A stretch of DNA of 18,062 nt from Brachionus koreanus (lineage: Eukaryota > Rotifera > Eurotatoria > Ploima > Brachionidae), in NCBI GenBank assembly GCA_016987375.1, contig PJRA01000473.1:1322736-1340797 (forward strand). Reading direction: 5' to 3'. The notes below the pieces were generated by a model that saw only the letters and a program-made list of their open reading frames with translations, ran no database searches and was not told where the DNA came from. Below, in pieces: positions 11,236 to 17,658 of this stretch (within the stretch, counting starts at the first letter, position 1; each line of letters opens with the position of its first letter). The translations under genes and the position numbers were made by a program.

Positions 11236-12009
11236 ATGCCCAATCCTCAGCACACAGCTTTTCTAAAAGAGTCTTTAGAAAGACAGAATATTGAAGTTAT
11301 TCATGTTTTTTCTACTAATAAATACGGACCATTTAATTATTTGAATGAAATCGATCCTTTAAACGAAGAAGAGCATCAGAAATTTATTCAAAATTTTAAA
11401 TGGGGTATTTATGCTATTGCAAAACCTAAAAAAAAATCAATAGAGATAATACAATTAGATGACGAAACTCCAATAACTATTTATCGGCCTTTTAGATTTT
11501 TAATTGGAGAAGCCTTTTCGCATGATGAAAAAAAATCATTTTTGATTTATGTTCCAAAGCCGTATTTAAATGAAATAAAAAAAATTCAAATTGAAGATAA
11601 ACAGAACAGACTAAAAGAATTAAATGATGCGTCTAAAAAACATTATGAATTTTTCGAAAATTTTTTCAATAGATTACAAGAAGAATCTCAAAAAGTTTTG
11701 GACAATTTTTTCCGAACTACCAATTTAAAAGAACTTGCTATGAAAGGTAATCGAAAAGATAATGTACCAAATCAAATAATTGAAGCGATTCGTAGAAATA
11801 AAATTCCAACACATCAAGAACTTCCATTAGGTGAATTTATAGCACATGAAGAATCTATTGAATTACCTAACGGTCAAATTAAAACCTTAGTTTTGATAAT
11901 TATTACCAACTTTAAAGGATCTTCCACACAAGAATACCAAGCCAATAATTGTCACATCAGTGAAACAACTGAGAATTATTCAATTCTTTATAATTTACTT
12001 TCAAAATAG
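11236..12009 (+). CDS. Unrecognised 257-aa protein (single exon)
   Basis: I do not recognise this protein. The open frame of 258 codons is far longer than chance in this AT-rich DNA and has balanced, coding-like composition. It starts at ATG 11236 shortly after a good splice acceptor. The N-terminal ~110 residues mix strands and turns (EVIHVFSTNKYGPFNYL, KWGIYAIAKPKKKSIEIIQL, ITIYRPFRFLIGEAFSHDE). Residues about 115-165 look like a charged helical or coiled-coil segment (KIQIEDKQNRLKELNDASKK onward). The C-terminal third ends in a hydrophobic strand, KTLVLIIITNF, and a polar tail. No signal peptide, clear membrane helix, Cys/His cluster or catalytic motif is visible. AATAAA at 12057-12062 follows the stop. 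Being intronless among intron-rich genes, it could be a retrocopy, a lineage-specific gene or a transferred gene. Confidence 0.7.
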   Translation: MPNPQHTAFLKESLERQNIEVIHVFSTNKYGPFNYLNEIDPLNEEEHQKFIQNFKWGIYAIAKPKKKSIEIIQLDDETPITIYRPFRFLIGEAFSHDEKKSFLIYVPKPYLNEIKKIQIEDKQNRLKELNDASKKHYEFFENFFNRLQEESQKVLDNFFRTTNLKELAMKGNRKDNVPNQIIEAIRRNKIPTHQELPLGEFIAHEESIELPNGQIKTLVLIIITNFKGSSTQEYQANNCHISETTENYSILYNLLSK

Positions 12010-12808: not shown

Positions 12809-12950
12809 GTTAGCGCAAAAACTTTGAATATTTTTAAGTCGAAACTAGATGCATGGCTTGTGAAAAAAGAAGCGACTGCTAAAGCTCATTAGAGCTCTGC
12901 TCGGGCATTTTTCCGAGTCGCAGTTTAACTTACTACTACTACTACTACTA
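12809..12950 (+). mobile_element. 3' tail of a non-LTR retrotransposon (5'-truncated copy)
   Basis: In the frame ending at TAG 12890-12892 the last codons read NIFKSKLDAWLVKKEATAKA plus His. This resembles the FKxxLD end of reverse-transcriptase ORFs in CR1/Jockey-like non-LTR elements. After the stop comes a GC-richer structured stretch: GCGACT at 12872-12877 can pair with AGTCGC at 12916-12921 around an inner CTCGG/CCGAG stem. The copy ends in a trinucleotide run, (TAC) about 6-7 times, at 12930-12950. A short 3' UTR hairpin plus terminal microsatellite is typical of such elements. Only about 27 codons of the ORF are visible upstream, so this is a severely truncated insertion. The family name is not certain. 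Confidence 0.6.
12930..12950 (+). repeat. (TAC)n trinucleotide microsatellite
   Basis: An uninterrupted TAC repeat of six to seven units directly follows the retroelement 3' UTR. It is best read as that element's 3' terminal repeat rather than an independent microsatellite. Confidence 0.85.
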
Positions 12951-14092: not shown

Positions 14093-14878
14093 ATGAAATT
14101 AAACTTGTATCTATTTTTGGTTTATTTCCAATTTCAATTAAGTATTTATATCCAAAATTTGTAAATTTAGCTAAAATTTAATTAGATAGATTTGCTAGTG
14201 GTATATTACAAACTAATTCAAATTCAAGTAAAAGCTAAATTTATTTTATTTGTAATATTAGTTTAAAATTATTTTTCTTAAGGTTTTGTCAAAAAAAGAT
14301 CAGTTTTAGATCATGATTCAATCAATAACAATAAAAGTAAGATTTGTCTTCATACTTAGAAAAATGTATTTCAATAAAATTTAAGTTGTTTGCTATTACA
14401 CATCATGGTCGCGAAACAGAAATGGAGCAAATTTAGAACCAGAAAATATAGATCCAAATCTGTGCACTCATATAAATTATGCATTTGCAAAAATTAGATT
14501 TGAGCAACTTGTTCCTTCGGAATCTTACTTGGAAGAGACTTTTGAAAGAAGTGTAGGACTGTATTCTCGAATAAATAGCCTAAAACATACTAATCCACGA
14601 TTAAATGTTTTGCTTTCTATAGGAAGTAAAATTTTCTAAATTTAAATGCTGCAAAAAACAAATTCATTTTTAAGGTTTTGATCTGAATGGTGAATTAAAA
14701 CGATTCATTTATGATCGGTCAAAACGACTTAGCTTTATTAATTCAGCTCTAAAATTGGTTAAAAAATATGGCTTTGATGGAATCGGTAATAGTTTTCTTT
14801 ATTTAAAAAAAAAAAAGTTCAATTTGACATTGATATCATTTTTTAGATTTAAATTTTGATGAAAAAAAGCACTATTAA
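14093..14878 (+). CDS. N-terminal half of a secreted GH18 chitinase, truncated at the catalytic motif (4 exons)
   Basis: Exons: 14093-14141 (signal peptide MKLNLYLFLVYFQFQL), 14386-14625, 14675-14785, 14847-14878; phases all agree (1,1,1), product 143 aa. The mature part opens IVCYYTSWSRNRNGANL, the first barrel strand of animal GH18 enzymes. It continues with THINYAFAKI (strand 2) and RLNVLLSIG (strand 3) and reaches KKYGFDGIDLNFDEKK (strand 4). The family motif DxxDxDxE should sit here; the sequence gives D131, D134, N136 and D138, so the third Asp and the catalytic Glu are replaced. The frame then ends at TAA 14876-14878. AATAAA at 14907-14912 could end this transcript. The other half of the barrel is found beyond the LPMO module downstream. 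Alone this cannot be a working chitinase; it may be a pseudogene, a short lectin-like product, or the 5' part of an alternatively spliced chitinase. Confidence 0.82.
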
Positions 14879-14906
14879 AGTTTTTTTTCCTATGAACTCT
14901 TATTAA

Positions 14907-14916
14907 AATAAATAAA
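14907..14916 (+). terminator. Polyadenylation signals between half-chitinase and LPMO
   Basis: Two overlapping AATAAA hexamers (14907-14912, 14911-14916) lie about 30 nt after the truncated chitinase stop and before the LPMO start. They would allow a separate, short mRNA. Confidence 0.4.
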
Positions 14917-14952
14917 TTATTAAATCAAATATTTTCCTTTTATTTTTCATAA

Positions 14953-14973
14953 AAAATATTTTCATTCAATTAG
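14953..14973 (+). promoter_or_regulatory. Orphan 3' splice acceptor before the LPMO start
   Basis: TTTTCATTCAATTAG ends at 14973, 21 nt before ATG 14995 and 95 nt after the upstream stop. The spacing resembles that of a downstream cistron in a trans-spliced operon, but it could also be chance. Confidence 0.35.
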
Positions 14974-14994
14974 AATAAAAAATTACCTTTTAAA

Positions 14995-17658
14995 ATGATA
15001 TTATTTTATTTGTTGTTAATAATTAGAGCATTATCAGTTAACAGTCACGGCCGTTTGATTGATCCACCGGCAAGATCTTCTTGTTGGCGAGAATTTCCCA
15101 AAACATGTAAAGCAGAGTTTACTGATAACCAAATGTTTTGTGGTGGAAAAGAAACTCAATGGAATAAAAATGGTATTTTGAAGACGCATCTTTATCCGGA
15201 TTAATTTTTTTTGTATAGGTGGCAAGTGTGGAATATGCGGAGATAGCTTTTCTGGCCCTAGAAATTTTGAACTTGGTGGCAAAGGTTATTCTGGTTTCGT
15301 AGTAAGAAACTATTCTCATGGACAAATTATTAATGTTAAAGTAGAAGTAATAAAATATTTATTCATTTATCAGTGTTGTCTACTTAAGTTACTAAGTAAA
15401 TCAATTAATGTTATAGCTTACTGCAAATCACTTAGGATGGTTTGAATTTCGAATTTGCAATGCTGATCATTTGATAGCTCATGGTCAAGATGCAAATCAA
15501 GAATGTCTAAACCAAAATTTACTCAAAGATCAATTCGGAAATTCAAAGATGCTAGCTACTCCTGGTATGGGATCTTTCTATTCTTATAAAATTATTCTCC
15601 CTCTAGGGCTAAATTGTTATCGATGCGTTTTTCAAGTAAAGTATTTCTTCTATTGATAGTTTTTTCTCATTTTATGGCTTTATTTCTTAGTGGAAGTATC
15701 ATACGGGAAATAGTTGGGGCTCGAATCCAATAACAGGAAAATCTTGTCTTGGCTGTGGTTCACAAGAAGAATTTTATGGTTGTTCGGATATAAGTATTGG
15801 TCAAAGCCATGCCTCTTCTCAAATCTATCAGCCATTTTATTTCTCCAAATCAACTGTTCCTACTTCATCAACTAAAAGCTGGAAATTAACAACAGTTCCG
15901 TATCGTCAGTCTACATTGGTCTCCAATTATTTATTTGAATCTAATTCAAATGTTTCTTTTAAATGTCCGAATAATGGTTTGTATCCAAATTATCAAACAG
16001 GGTGTAGAGAGTTTTATTCATGTTGGCATGTCGGAACTAGGTGGGAAAATGTAGTTTCCATGTCTTGTCCTGCTAGGCTCCTTTTTGATAATCGTGTAAA
16101 ATCATGCAATTATGAACAATTAGTTGACTGCTTTGCAAACAAGCATCTTGATTACTTGGATAATATAGACAATTTTAGAGACATGATGGGCGATTTTATT
16201 TATGAATTAAAAAGTGTTTTATCTCAACATCGGTTAATACTATCAATAACGATTCCATCTGAAAAAAATTTGCCAAAAAACCGTGAAAAGGCTTTAAAGA
16301 TTATAAAGTAGATTTTTAATGTATAATATCTTAATTTTCAAATAATTTTAATTTTATTGATCTTTTACTCTTAAAAATAGATTAAGTAAAGCGAAATAAA
16401 AAAATTAATTAAATTAATAAAAGATAATTTAAGAAAAGTGTTGAGCACTTGATGGCCACGTATGAAAATTAAGTTTTAGAAAATTTAAAATATAAAAAAT
16501 AGTTGACACTGACGAATTTCAGCACCGTTTTAAATTTTGTTTAAAGAGAGTTAAATTTTTTAATTTTAGAAAAAAATCATTTAATTATTTGATTAGAAAT
16601 AAATAAATTTGATGTTTAAAATTTTATTTTAATTTGATTTTAAGTAACGTTGATTATATAAATCTAATTGCTTATGTAAGCTTGAGATTTTCCGGAAAAA
16701 AAATTTTTTAATTTACTAAGACATTTTAAAAGGATATTCATGGTCCATGGGAATCTGATATTCGTCATCATTCTCCATTGTTCGCACATCCAAATTTTGA
16801 TGTTCAGAGTTTGGTTAAAGGGATGTTAAATTATGGTGTGCCAAGGAAGAAGCTTGTCCTTGGAATGGCACTTTATGGAAGAACCTTTAGGAAAAAATAT
16901 TTTCCGTTTATAAAATCGCAAAGCATATCAGTCGAATCAGGGATATCAGGACAGGTATTAAGAAAGAAAAAATTTGTTCACTTTGCTTTTTAAAATATTG
17001 CTAAATCTATTGTCAAGTATTCAAAATCTTCAGGCATGATTGGTTATTTTGAAATTTGTGAATTGATTAAATCTCATGGTTGGACTCGCATATGGGACAA
17101 TGATAAAAAAGTTCCAGTTCTTTATAGAGGAAACGATTGGATTGGGTATGAAGACAGTCAAAGTCTTATTCATAAAGTTATAAAAATATAACTCATTTTT
17201 ACACTATTTATAAATCTGCATTTAATAGACCAAATTTGTAAAATATAACCAGTTAGCTGGAGTAATGTTTTGGGATTTAAGCTTAGATGATTATAATGGA
17301 AAGTTTTGCAATCAAGTAATTCTTAAACTGAACATCAATTTTCTTTTAAATTTATTAACAAATGTACAAGGGAAGATTTCACTTGATAAGAAGTGTAAAG
17401 AATGAGTTACTTTCACATAATAAAGTCACACCTGTGAGACCAAAGTCCTATAAAATTTATGCCTCGACTAAAGCACATTGTTGGAAAGGTGATGGCTTTT
17501 ATCCAGATTATAATACAAATTGTATCCGTTATTATCGTTGTTCCAACTCCATGACTCCGTACAAACGCATTGAATATTTTTCATGTCCAAAATCTACTCT
17601 ATACGATGAAAGATTAAAAACGTGTACTTTTAAGAACTTAGTAGTTTGTAAGAAATAA
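14995..17658 (+). CDS. Chimeric secreted AA15 LPMO-CBM14 fused to the C-terminal half of GH18 chitinase plus CBM14 (9 exons)
   Basis: Exons: 14995-15172, 15219-15346, 15417-15635, 15691-16307, 16645-16675, 16733-16954, 17018-17176, 17229-17315, 17371-17658; all phases agree, product 642 aa. Residues 1-17 are a signal peptide; cleavage exposes His18 (HGRLIDPPARSSCWR), the N-terminal copper ligand. The second histidine is His107 in LTANHLGWFEFR, and Phe203 in QEEFYGCSDI is the likely axial aromatic. After a Ser/Thr linker, residues about 265-322 form a six-Cys CBM14 (peritrophin-A) domain. From about 333 the chain becomes GH18: NFRDMMGDFIYELKSVL, NNVDYINLIAYDIHGPWE (strand 6, Tyr391-Asp392), KLVLGMALYGRTF, GMIGYFEICELI, GVMFWDLSLDDYNGKFC (strand 8). 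A second CBM14 (584-640) ends the protein. AA15 enzymes cleave chitin or cellulose oxidatively; the GH18 half lacks strands 1-4 and the catalytic acid, so only the LPMO should be active. A separate LPMO ending near 16140 has no stop to support it. Confidence 0.87.
16645..16675 (+). other. 31-nt microexon of the chimeric gene
   Basis: The segment encodes NVDYINLIAY between TTTTAAG/T and TAT/GTAAGC. It is the strand-6 region that GH18 proteins need directly before D-I-H-G, which starts the next exon at 16733. The phase-2 donor at 16307 and phase-0 acceptor at 16733 fit only if this microexon is included. Confidence 0.85.

Follow-up and report, generated by a model that had tools for sequence, protein, structure and literature searches.

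An 18,062-nt window of the Brachionus koreanus genome (C24:1322736-1340797, + strand, G+C 25%) holds a chitinase-like gene of family GH18 that appears to be split by a second gene. A unit encoding an AA15 lytic polysaccharide monooxygenase (LPMO) and a CBM14 module is placed inside a GH18 exon, and we consider it likely, if well short of certain, that the outcome is a chimeric LPMO with a half-barrel, chitin-holding tail next to a truncated upstream GH18 half.

The split GH18 gene

The upstream frame matches Pfam Glyco_hydro_18 over profile positions 1-114 (E 2e-24), starts with a stretch that, judged by eye, resembles a signal peptide, and terminates as FDGIDLNFDEKKHY-TAA with the in-frame stop at 14876-14878; this bears out the sequence-only reading, in which a first GH18 half with strands 1-4 ends at 14878. 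The spliced downstream frame matches LPMO_10, two CBM14 stretches (CBM_14, 35.1 and 36.8 bits, cut-off 22.1) and GH18 positions 126-317 (8.4e-41), and the GH18 second half through strand 8, with CBM14 following to 17658, was thus also correctly called from the letters. When the tail of the LPMO exon and a 31-nt microexon are excluded, GH18 coverage is 1-114 and 182-317; with both included it is 1-114 and 126-317, and some 11 positions of the profile, which fall in a variable loop, are unaccounted for. No single chain contains a complete eight-strand barrel, the two portions lying in separate reading units. The features are:

14093..14878, + strand: GH18 N-half open frame, 161 codons plus TAA, strands 1-4 (Pfam and spliced frame)
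14093-14141, 14283-14336, 14386-14625, 14675-14785, 14847-14878, + strand: the five N-half exons, with GT-AG introns
14847..14878, + strand: N-half exon 5, degenerate motif ...(FDGI)DLNFDEKKHY and then TAA; predicted break of the ancestral exon
14879..14994, + strand: 116-bp spacer from the N-half stop to the LPMO ATG
14995..17658, + strand: predicted chimeric gene AA15-CBM14-GH18(strands 5-8)-CBM14, 642 aa plus TAA
14995-15172, 15219-15346, 15417-15635, 15691-16307, 16645-16675, 16733-16954, 17018-17176, 17229-17315, 17371-17658, + strand: the nine chimera exons, with eight GT-AG introns
14995-15172, 15219-15346, 15417-15635, 15691 onward, + strand: LPMO exons, with their own ATG at 14995
15046..15048, + strand: His codon (residue 18), predicted mature N-terminus of the copper site, from the alignment to 5msz
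15964..16131, + strand: first CBM14, residues 267-322 (CBM_14, E 1.4e-08), closing the AA15-CBM14 unit
16132..16161, + strand: CBM14/GH18 junction FANKHLDYLD, intronless within exon 15691-16307
16162..16307, + strand: GH18 helix 4/strand 5 segment (NIDNFRDMMGDFIYELKSVLSQHRLILSITIPSEKN...) in the LPMO exon, GH18 profile match from position 126
16308..16644, + strand: bridging intron 182/2, 337 nt; its donor (16308) shares letters with the in-frame TAG 16309-16311
16645..16675, + strand: microexon NVDYINLIAY, 31 nt, present in same-genome GH18 paralogs
16733..17400, + strand: GH18 strands 6-8, with the Y and D of MxYD and the strand-8 W retained
17485..17649, + strand: second CBM14 (Pfam CBM_14)

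The locus was compared with other GH18 genes of this genome, the searches covering the 83.3-Mb assembly of 92 contigs and returning exon-level matches at 88 GH18 and 133 CBM14 places (150 of 155 CBM14 candidates scored). The paralog set comprises 26 models built by spliced alignment, eight of them incomplete; as it includes near-copies (C18, C31, C5/C53, C21/C35 and C3/C9 pairs), intron counts taken from it are not independent. Past the catalytic motif, paralog C2_1536880 reads DLDWEYPANRDTEDRPDDKIFFTILCK, an intron and then ELKAAF..., and in C24_36239 the corresponding region is one exon, both being insert-free. The loop is broken in the window, with DLNFDEKKHY and a stop upstream and ANKHLDYLDNIDNFRDMMGDFIYELKS immediately 3' of CBM14. 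As part of the LPMO exon already encodes GH18, the AA15-CBM14 unit would lie inside one ancestral exon, just past strand 4; complementary GH18 coverage and an LPMO in frame with the second half support the claim, made from the letters, that the unit interrupts a GH18 gene right after the catalytic motif. Insert-free GH18 genes followed by CBM14 also exist in the genome (for example at C31, 324-326 kb, and in the C12 cluster). A gene nested in an intron is rejected, since the LPMO shares an exon with GH18 and the 5' exon of the host terminates at a stop codon.

That both GH18 halves come from one gene is favoured by their complementary break points. Trees of the N-half (18 sequences) and of the C-half (22) give differing, poorly supported placements and do not decide the matter. 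A target-site duplication was sought at the junctions, where the similarity AAAGCA.CT..ATTA falls short of significance (P 0.112, 1000 shuffles), and the repeats flanking the insert are just short or imperfect AT-rich ones, the longest inverted arms measuring 57 nt at 74%. Within the spacer, AATAAA occurs at 14907, 14911 and 14974; these copies mean little because AATAAA is so frequent across the whole window (0.42 per 100 bp). An AG acceptor ending at 14973 is of about median paralog strength. The first GT donor near the N-half end falls 3' of the TAA, while a GC donor 5' of that stop scores under all 53 paralog donors, partly by construction as the score was trained on GT donors only.

Among the paralogs, two copies at C31:235976-240520 and C31:325799-330343 are near-identical, on opposite strands and about 90 kb apart, and represent either a recent inverted duplication or both haplotypes assembled.

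Predicted splicing of the bridge and identity of the LPMO

All 12 introns of the locus are GT-AG, with site scores inside the range of 53 GH18 paralog introns, a yardstick that is somewhat favourable as the aligner favours the GT-AG consensus. The lowest-scoring sites are the acceptor ending at 15416, at the 4th percentile, and the two donors 15173 and 17177, both at the 6th. Together with the open 161- and 642-codon frames, this agrees with the clean, in-phase splicing that had been read from the sequence. Each of the seven GH18-domain introns shares position and phase (given as guide residue/phase) with between 1 and 15 of the 26 paralog models: in the N-half 83/1 is found in 2/26 and 121/1 in 5/26, and further downstream 273/0 is found in 10/26, 325/0 in 5/26 and 354/0 in 1/26. 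Of the two introns flanking the microexon, 182/2 recurs in 15 of the 26 models and 192/0 in eight, with both present in seven.

Read naively, the LPMO frame comprises 381 codons and ends at the TAG 16309-16311. Its last 59 residues resemble the GH18 segment past the strand-4 loop; the LPMO-exon tail alone (60 aa) has no Pfam match, and when extended via the next exons to 87 aa it matches GH18 positions 126-198 (47.3 bits, E 3e-12). With splicing from the donor at 16308 through the microexon to the acceptor ending at 16732, the frame runs unbroken for 642 codons, and we judge this bridge not to be ad hoc because 182/2, 192/0 and the microexon recur in GH18 paralogs. The conserved 182/2 position and the microexon likewise disfavour an LPMO ending at TAG 16309-16311 as the sole form. 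Should the intron 16308-16644 be kept in the transcript, a 381-aa LPMO-CBM14 would be produced, as the donor overlaps the TAG.

Inside the bridging intron, 16549-16641 matches two other genomic places at 77-80%, and a decayed repeat there possibly lengthened the intron. A GH18 gene at C24:34739-40639 has a 1.74-kb intron at 182/2; in the other 14 models that share this intron it measures 47-62 nt.

The LPMO begins with a signal-peptide-like stretch (judged by eye), followed by His18, the AA15 domain and CBM14. LPMO_10 is matched over residues 18-209 (E 3e-20), and the PDB entry 5msz (Thermobia AA15) over residues 18-216 (E 1.7e-39), which spans the entire catalytic domain. H18 and H107 align with residues 1 and 91 of the 5msz chain; in TdAA15A the copper-site roles belong to His1, His91 and Tyr184. 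The axial position holds Phe 203 in place of Tyr (Tyr184 of TdAA15A, as numbered from the alignment), as it holds Phe in all six other AA15 loci of the genome. Because Phe is usual at the axial position in AA10, it is no argument against activity, and by sequence the domain is assigned to AA15 with the axial Phe as a stated exception. With the CBM_14 match these results confirm a complete AA15-CBM14 module, given from the letters as 14995 to about 16140, the unit ending at about 16131.

At least six other AA15 loci exist in the genome (C2, C15, C25, C28, C60 and C6), counts from the own-genome protein search being lower bounds; C28 and C60 appear nearly identical. The best-scoring one has 52% protein identity to the LPMO, and no donor copy was seen in that search, none of the matches listed exceeding 53%. 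No stand-alone AA15-CBM14 gene was found in the genome (0 of 133 scored CBM14 places fall in the six other AA15 loci), none of the six lies inside a GH18 model, and two scans of viral contigs returned no relatives. The LPMO has three introns, of which 60/1 and 102/0 are also present in paralogs C25 and C6 (C2 and C15 are without them). This leads us to reject a retrocopy or processed pseudogene, and the shared introns speak for a transfer of the LPMO as genomic DNA. For an operon resolved by trans-splicing no leader was found: the bdelloid leader gave no match in the genome at up to two mismatches, RF00198 gave none in a scan that had no working control, and the accessible text of PMC1925144 reports no trans-spliced leader in Brachionus.

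The AA15 paralog at C2:92968-96585 is followed by a CBM1-like motif (CGG..WIGSTECQSGLACQYVNDWYSHC), presumably, by resemblance, a cellulose-type module. Elsewhere, the window contains a KCTD8/12/16-type gene (PF23110, 3e-50), an intronless 257-codon frame at 11236-12009 with no Pfam match above cut-off, and at 12830-12950 a short repeat resembling a short interspersed element, which ends in TACTACTAC; 40 copies of 121 candidates were scored, itself included, and the other scored copies have 85-98% identity. An Rfam scan of the window gave no match at the gathering score. The KCTD8/12/16-type gene and the abundance of GH18 and CBM14 matches are what would be expected of an invertebrate animal.

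Catalytic state, constraint and alternative readings

The strand-4 motif of the N-half reads FDGIDLNFD as compared to FDGLDLDWE, that is DxxDxNxD for DxxDxDxE with Glu replaced by Asp, and the window GH18 has GSF for GGW. The chimera is without the catalytic motif, and DxxDxDxE with its catalytic Glu is found in neither part. Motifs were compared in 15 paralog models (the 18 full-length of 26, minus three near-copies), 14 of which retain the Glu. The Asn at the preceding Asp position also occurs in C41_174972, which retains Glu; C2_1534671 is another open-frame paralog without it. Since the fused half lacks the catalytic Glu and the upstream half has a degenerate DxxDxNxD, the GH18 is probably dead, and by the known GH18 mechanism the predicted half barrel cannot hydrolyse chitin. 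The sequence-only reading had proposed that two cooperating enzymes are physically combined; this is not supported, as the fused half has no catalytic acid, and the upstream half, which bears the degenerate motif, is read separately and terminates ahead of the LPMO.

In the reading we prefer, an intron-bearing AA15-CBM14 gene would have lodged in the exon coding for the post-strand-4 loop of a GH18-CBM14 chitinase-like gene. The LPMO, without its own stop before the GH18 sequence, would then read in frame into the remaining chitinase, resulting in two reading units, a 161-aa GH18 N-half and a 642-aa secreted AA15-CBM14-GH18(strands 5-8)-CBM14 protein. After cleavage to free His1, the LPMO would bind copper and oxidise chitin, while the tail of CBM14, half barrel and CBM14 would hold it on chitin; the tail would not be a chitinase, because the catalytic Glu position lies outside the chimera and, in the upstream half, is occupied by Asp. 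That half may itself be made as a short secreted protein or act as a partner in trans, or it may be a by-product. Most likely, the chimera is a secreted chitin-active LPMO held by its tail. We propose this because the copper ligands are conserved, because AA15 activity and its synergy with a GH18 chitinase are known (PMC5823890), and because of the value of tethered modules, the full-length Jd1381/JdLPMO10A surpassing in efficiency every mixture of its parts (PMC10154629), as stated in the accessible text of both papers.

A less probable reading, unlikely in our view and yet to be taken seriously, is that of a recent GH18 pseudogene, with the LPMO alone functional (381 aa, the 337-nt intron retained) and GH18 remains that have not decayed so far. 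A TAG does lie in frame within the first nucleotides of the intron, and the motifs are degenerate (GSF for GGW, DLNFD for DLDWE). Several further points weigh against the chimera. The gene models are author-built predictions from genomic DNA. The bridging intron has a donor at the 19th and an acceptor at the 23rd percentile of the 53 paralog introns, and its 337 nt exceed all of them (42-226 nt). Both halves diverge, about equally, at conserved sites, as do three other paralogs, two of which have odd motifs, and pseudogenisation may possibly be under way. A half TIM barrel may be unable to fold alone. Finally, a young insertion, at a neutral divergence below about 5-8%, would likewise leave the frames open.

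These points can be set against measures of constraint. Conserved columns are retained at 33/51 (N) and 45/67 (C) under a 70% threshold and at 20/27 and 28/40 under 85%; at 70%, 12 of the 15 models retain 0.74-0.99 of columns. The low-retention paralogs are C2_1534671 (N 0.56, C 0.67), C9_1849505 (0.47, 0.62) and C29_328688 (0.65, 0.63), and as C29 and C9 retain Glu, low retention alone is no proof of lost activity. The N-half decays no faster than the C-half, with terminal branches of 0.67 and 1.11, respectively. Stops per frame number 0/16/17 in the N-half, 0/20/28 in the LPMO-CBM14 and 0/26/35 in the C-half, zero being the reading frame in each case, and a codon score trained on three other window frames, a small set, favours the reading frame in each block. 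Under a neutral expectation counting substitutions only, there is a 95% chance of a stop by about 8% divergence in the N-half and by about 5% in the C-half. Hence either the insertion is younger than about 5-8% neutral divergence or the parts are under selection. The earlier remark that the parts look constrained stands in the sense of open, coding-like frames and is supported in no stronger sense.

Stop-free frames are thus what a pseudogene would show at a neutral divergence since the event below about 0.05-0.08. However, seven GH18-domain introns with their splice sites are intact over about 1.4 kb of GH18-CBM14 coding sequence, the lack of a close LPMO donor copy among the listed matches gives no sign of a young event, and C2_1534671 has also lost the catalytic Glu with its frame open.

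Quite improbable, in our estimate, is a split barrel, in which the N-half and the C-half of the chimera would both be secreted and reassemble in trans into a barrel without catalytic activity that would grip chitin and position the LPMO; retention of the intron would decide between the 381-aa LPMO and the 642-aa chimera. The complementary coverage of 1-114 and 126-317, both halves open, would suit it, as would two cysteines retained in the N-half and two in the GH18 C-half. In chitotriosidase, such cysteines pair within each half. According to the accessible text of PMC4591997, isolated half barrels of a beta-glucosidase gain catalytic activity as particle size grows. Here, however, the catalytic residues are lost, and an interaction of the halves is purely conjectural.

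We give very little credence to exon skipping, by which GH18 exon 4 would join LPMO exon 2 and yield one chain, GH18(N)-LPMO fragment-CBM14-GH18(C)-CBM14. The phases agree (454 and 178 nt each leave a remainder of 1 modulo 3), and since phase 1 is common to the donors of LPMO exon 1 and of all four N-half exons 1-4, skipping into LPMO exon 2 would keep the frame; but such agreement is a one-in-three coincidence, and the product would be without the strand-4 motif and without LPMO exon 1, which carries His1. An assembly chimera, conceivable in that the arrangement is known from one assembly only, is equally hard to credit, as the junction is in frame inside one 617-nt exon, nothing of GH18 is duplicated or missing apart from the roughly 11 loop positions, and the contig measures 1.8 Mb.

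Relation to known systems

Sabbadin 2018 (PMC5823890) reports AA15-GH18 fusions from tunicates, diatoms and Chlorophyta, and PMC8615602 mentions AA15 combined with domains of GH9 or GH18. The earlier statement that no AA15-half-GH18 chimera has been described therefore needs narrowing: fusions of the two families are published, while for a half-barrel fusion no description was found in the open-access literature, covered mainly as titles and abstract openings. What appears to be new here is the break inside the barrel and the gene-in-exon origin, both unusual; the modules themselves are known. If expressed, the locus would be a natural chitin-active gene made by inserting one whole enzyme midway into the barrel of another, with a half-barrel tail left over, and LPMO-chitinase multimodular proteins could then arise without fusion at domain ends. 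It also offers a test case for half TIM barrels in animals, as lasting binding modules or as assemblies in trans.

The 26 GH18 models from this genome, several of which include CBM14, share intron positions, the microexon and a C-terminal CBM14 with the locus, but 14 of the 15 compared retain the catalytic Glu, and none hosts any of the six other AA15 loci. Chi-lectins, which are catalytically dead GH18 proteins, and the paralog C2_1534671 resemble it in having lost the motif with the frame open; unlike the half in the window, they are whole barrels. With TdAA15A (PDB 5MSZ) the LPMO is alignable over the entire catalytic domain and has the N-terminal His and the second His conserved, whereas it differs by Phe at the axial Tyr position and by the added CBM14 and half GH18.

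The published AA15-GH18 fusions likewise place AA15 together with GH18 sequence in a single predicted protein; they are described as GH18 domains, with halves unmentioned in the accessible text (PMC5823890), whereas the window fuses strands 5-8 only, strands 1-4 being in another, upstream frame, so that the protein has only half a GH18 rather than two complete catalytic domains. Finally, the AA10-CBM5-GH18 protein Jd1381/JdLPMO10A also combines an LPMO, a chitin-binding module and GH18 in one chain, but, as given in the accessible text (PMC10154629), it is a bacterial AA10 with an active GH18, while the GH18 part predicted in the window would be non-catalytic by the known mechanism.

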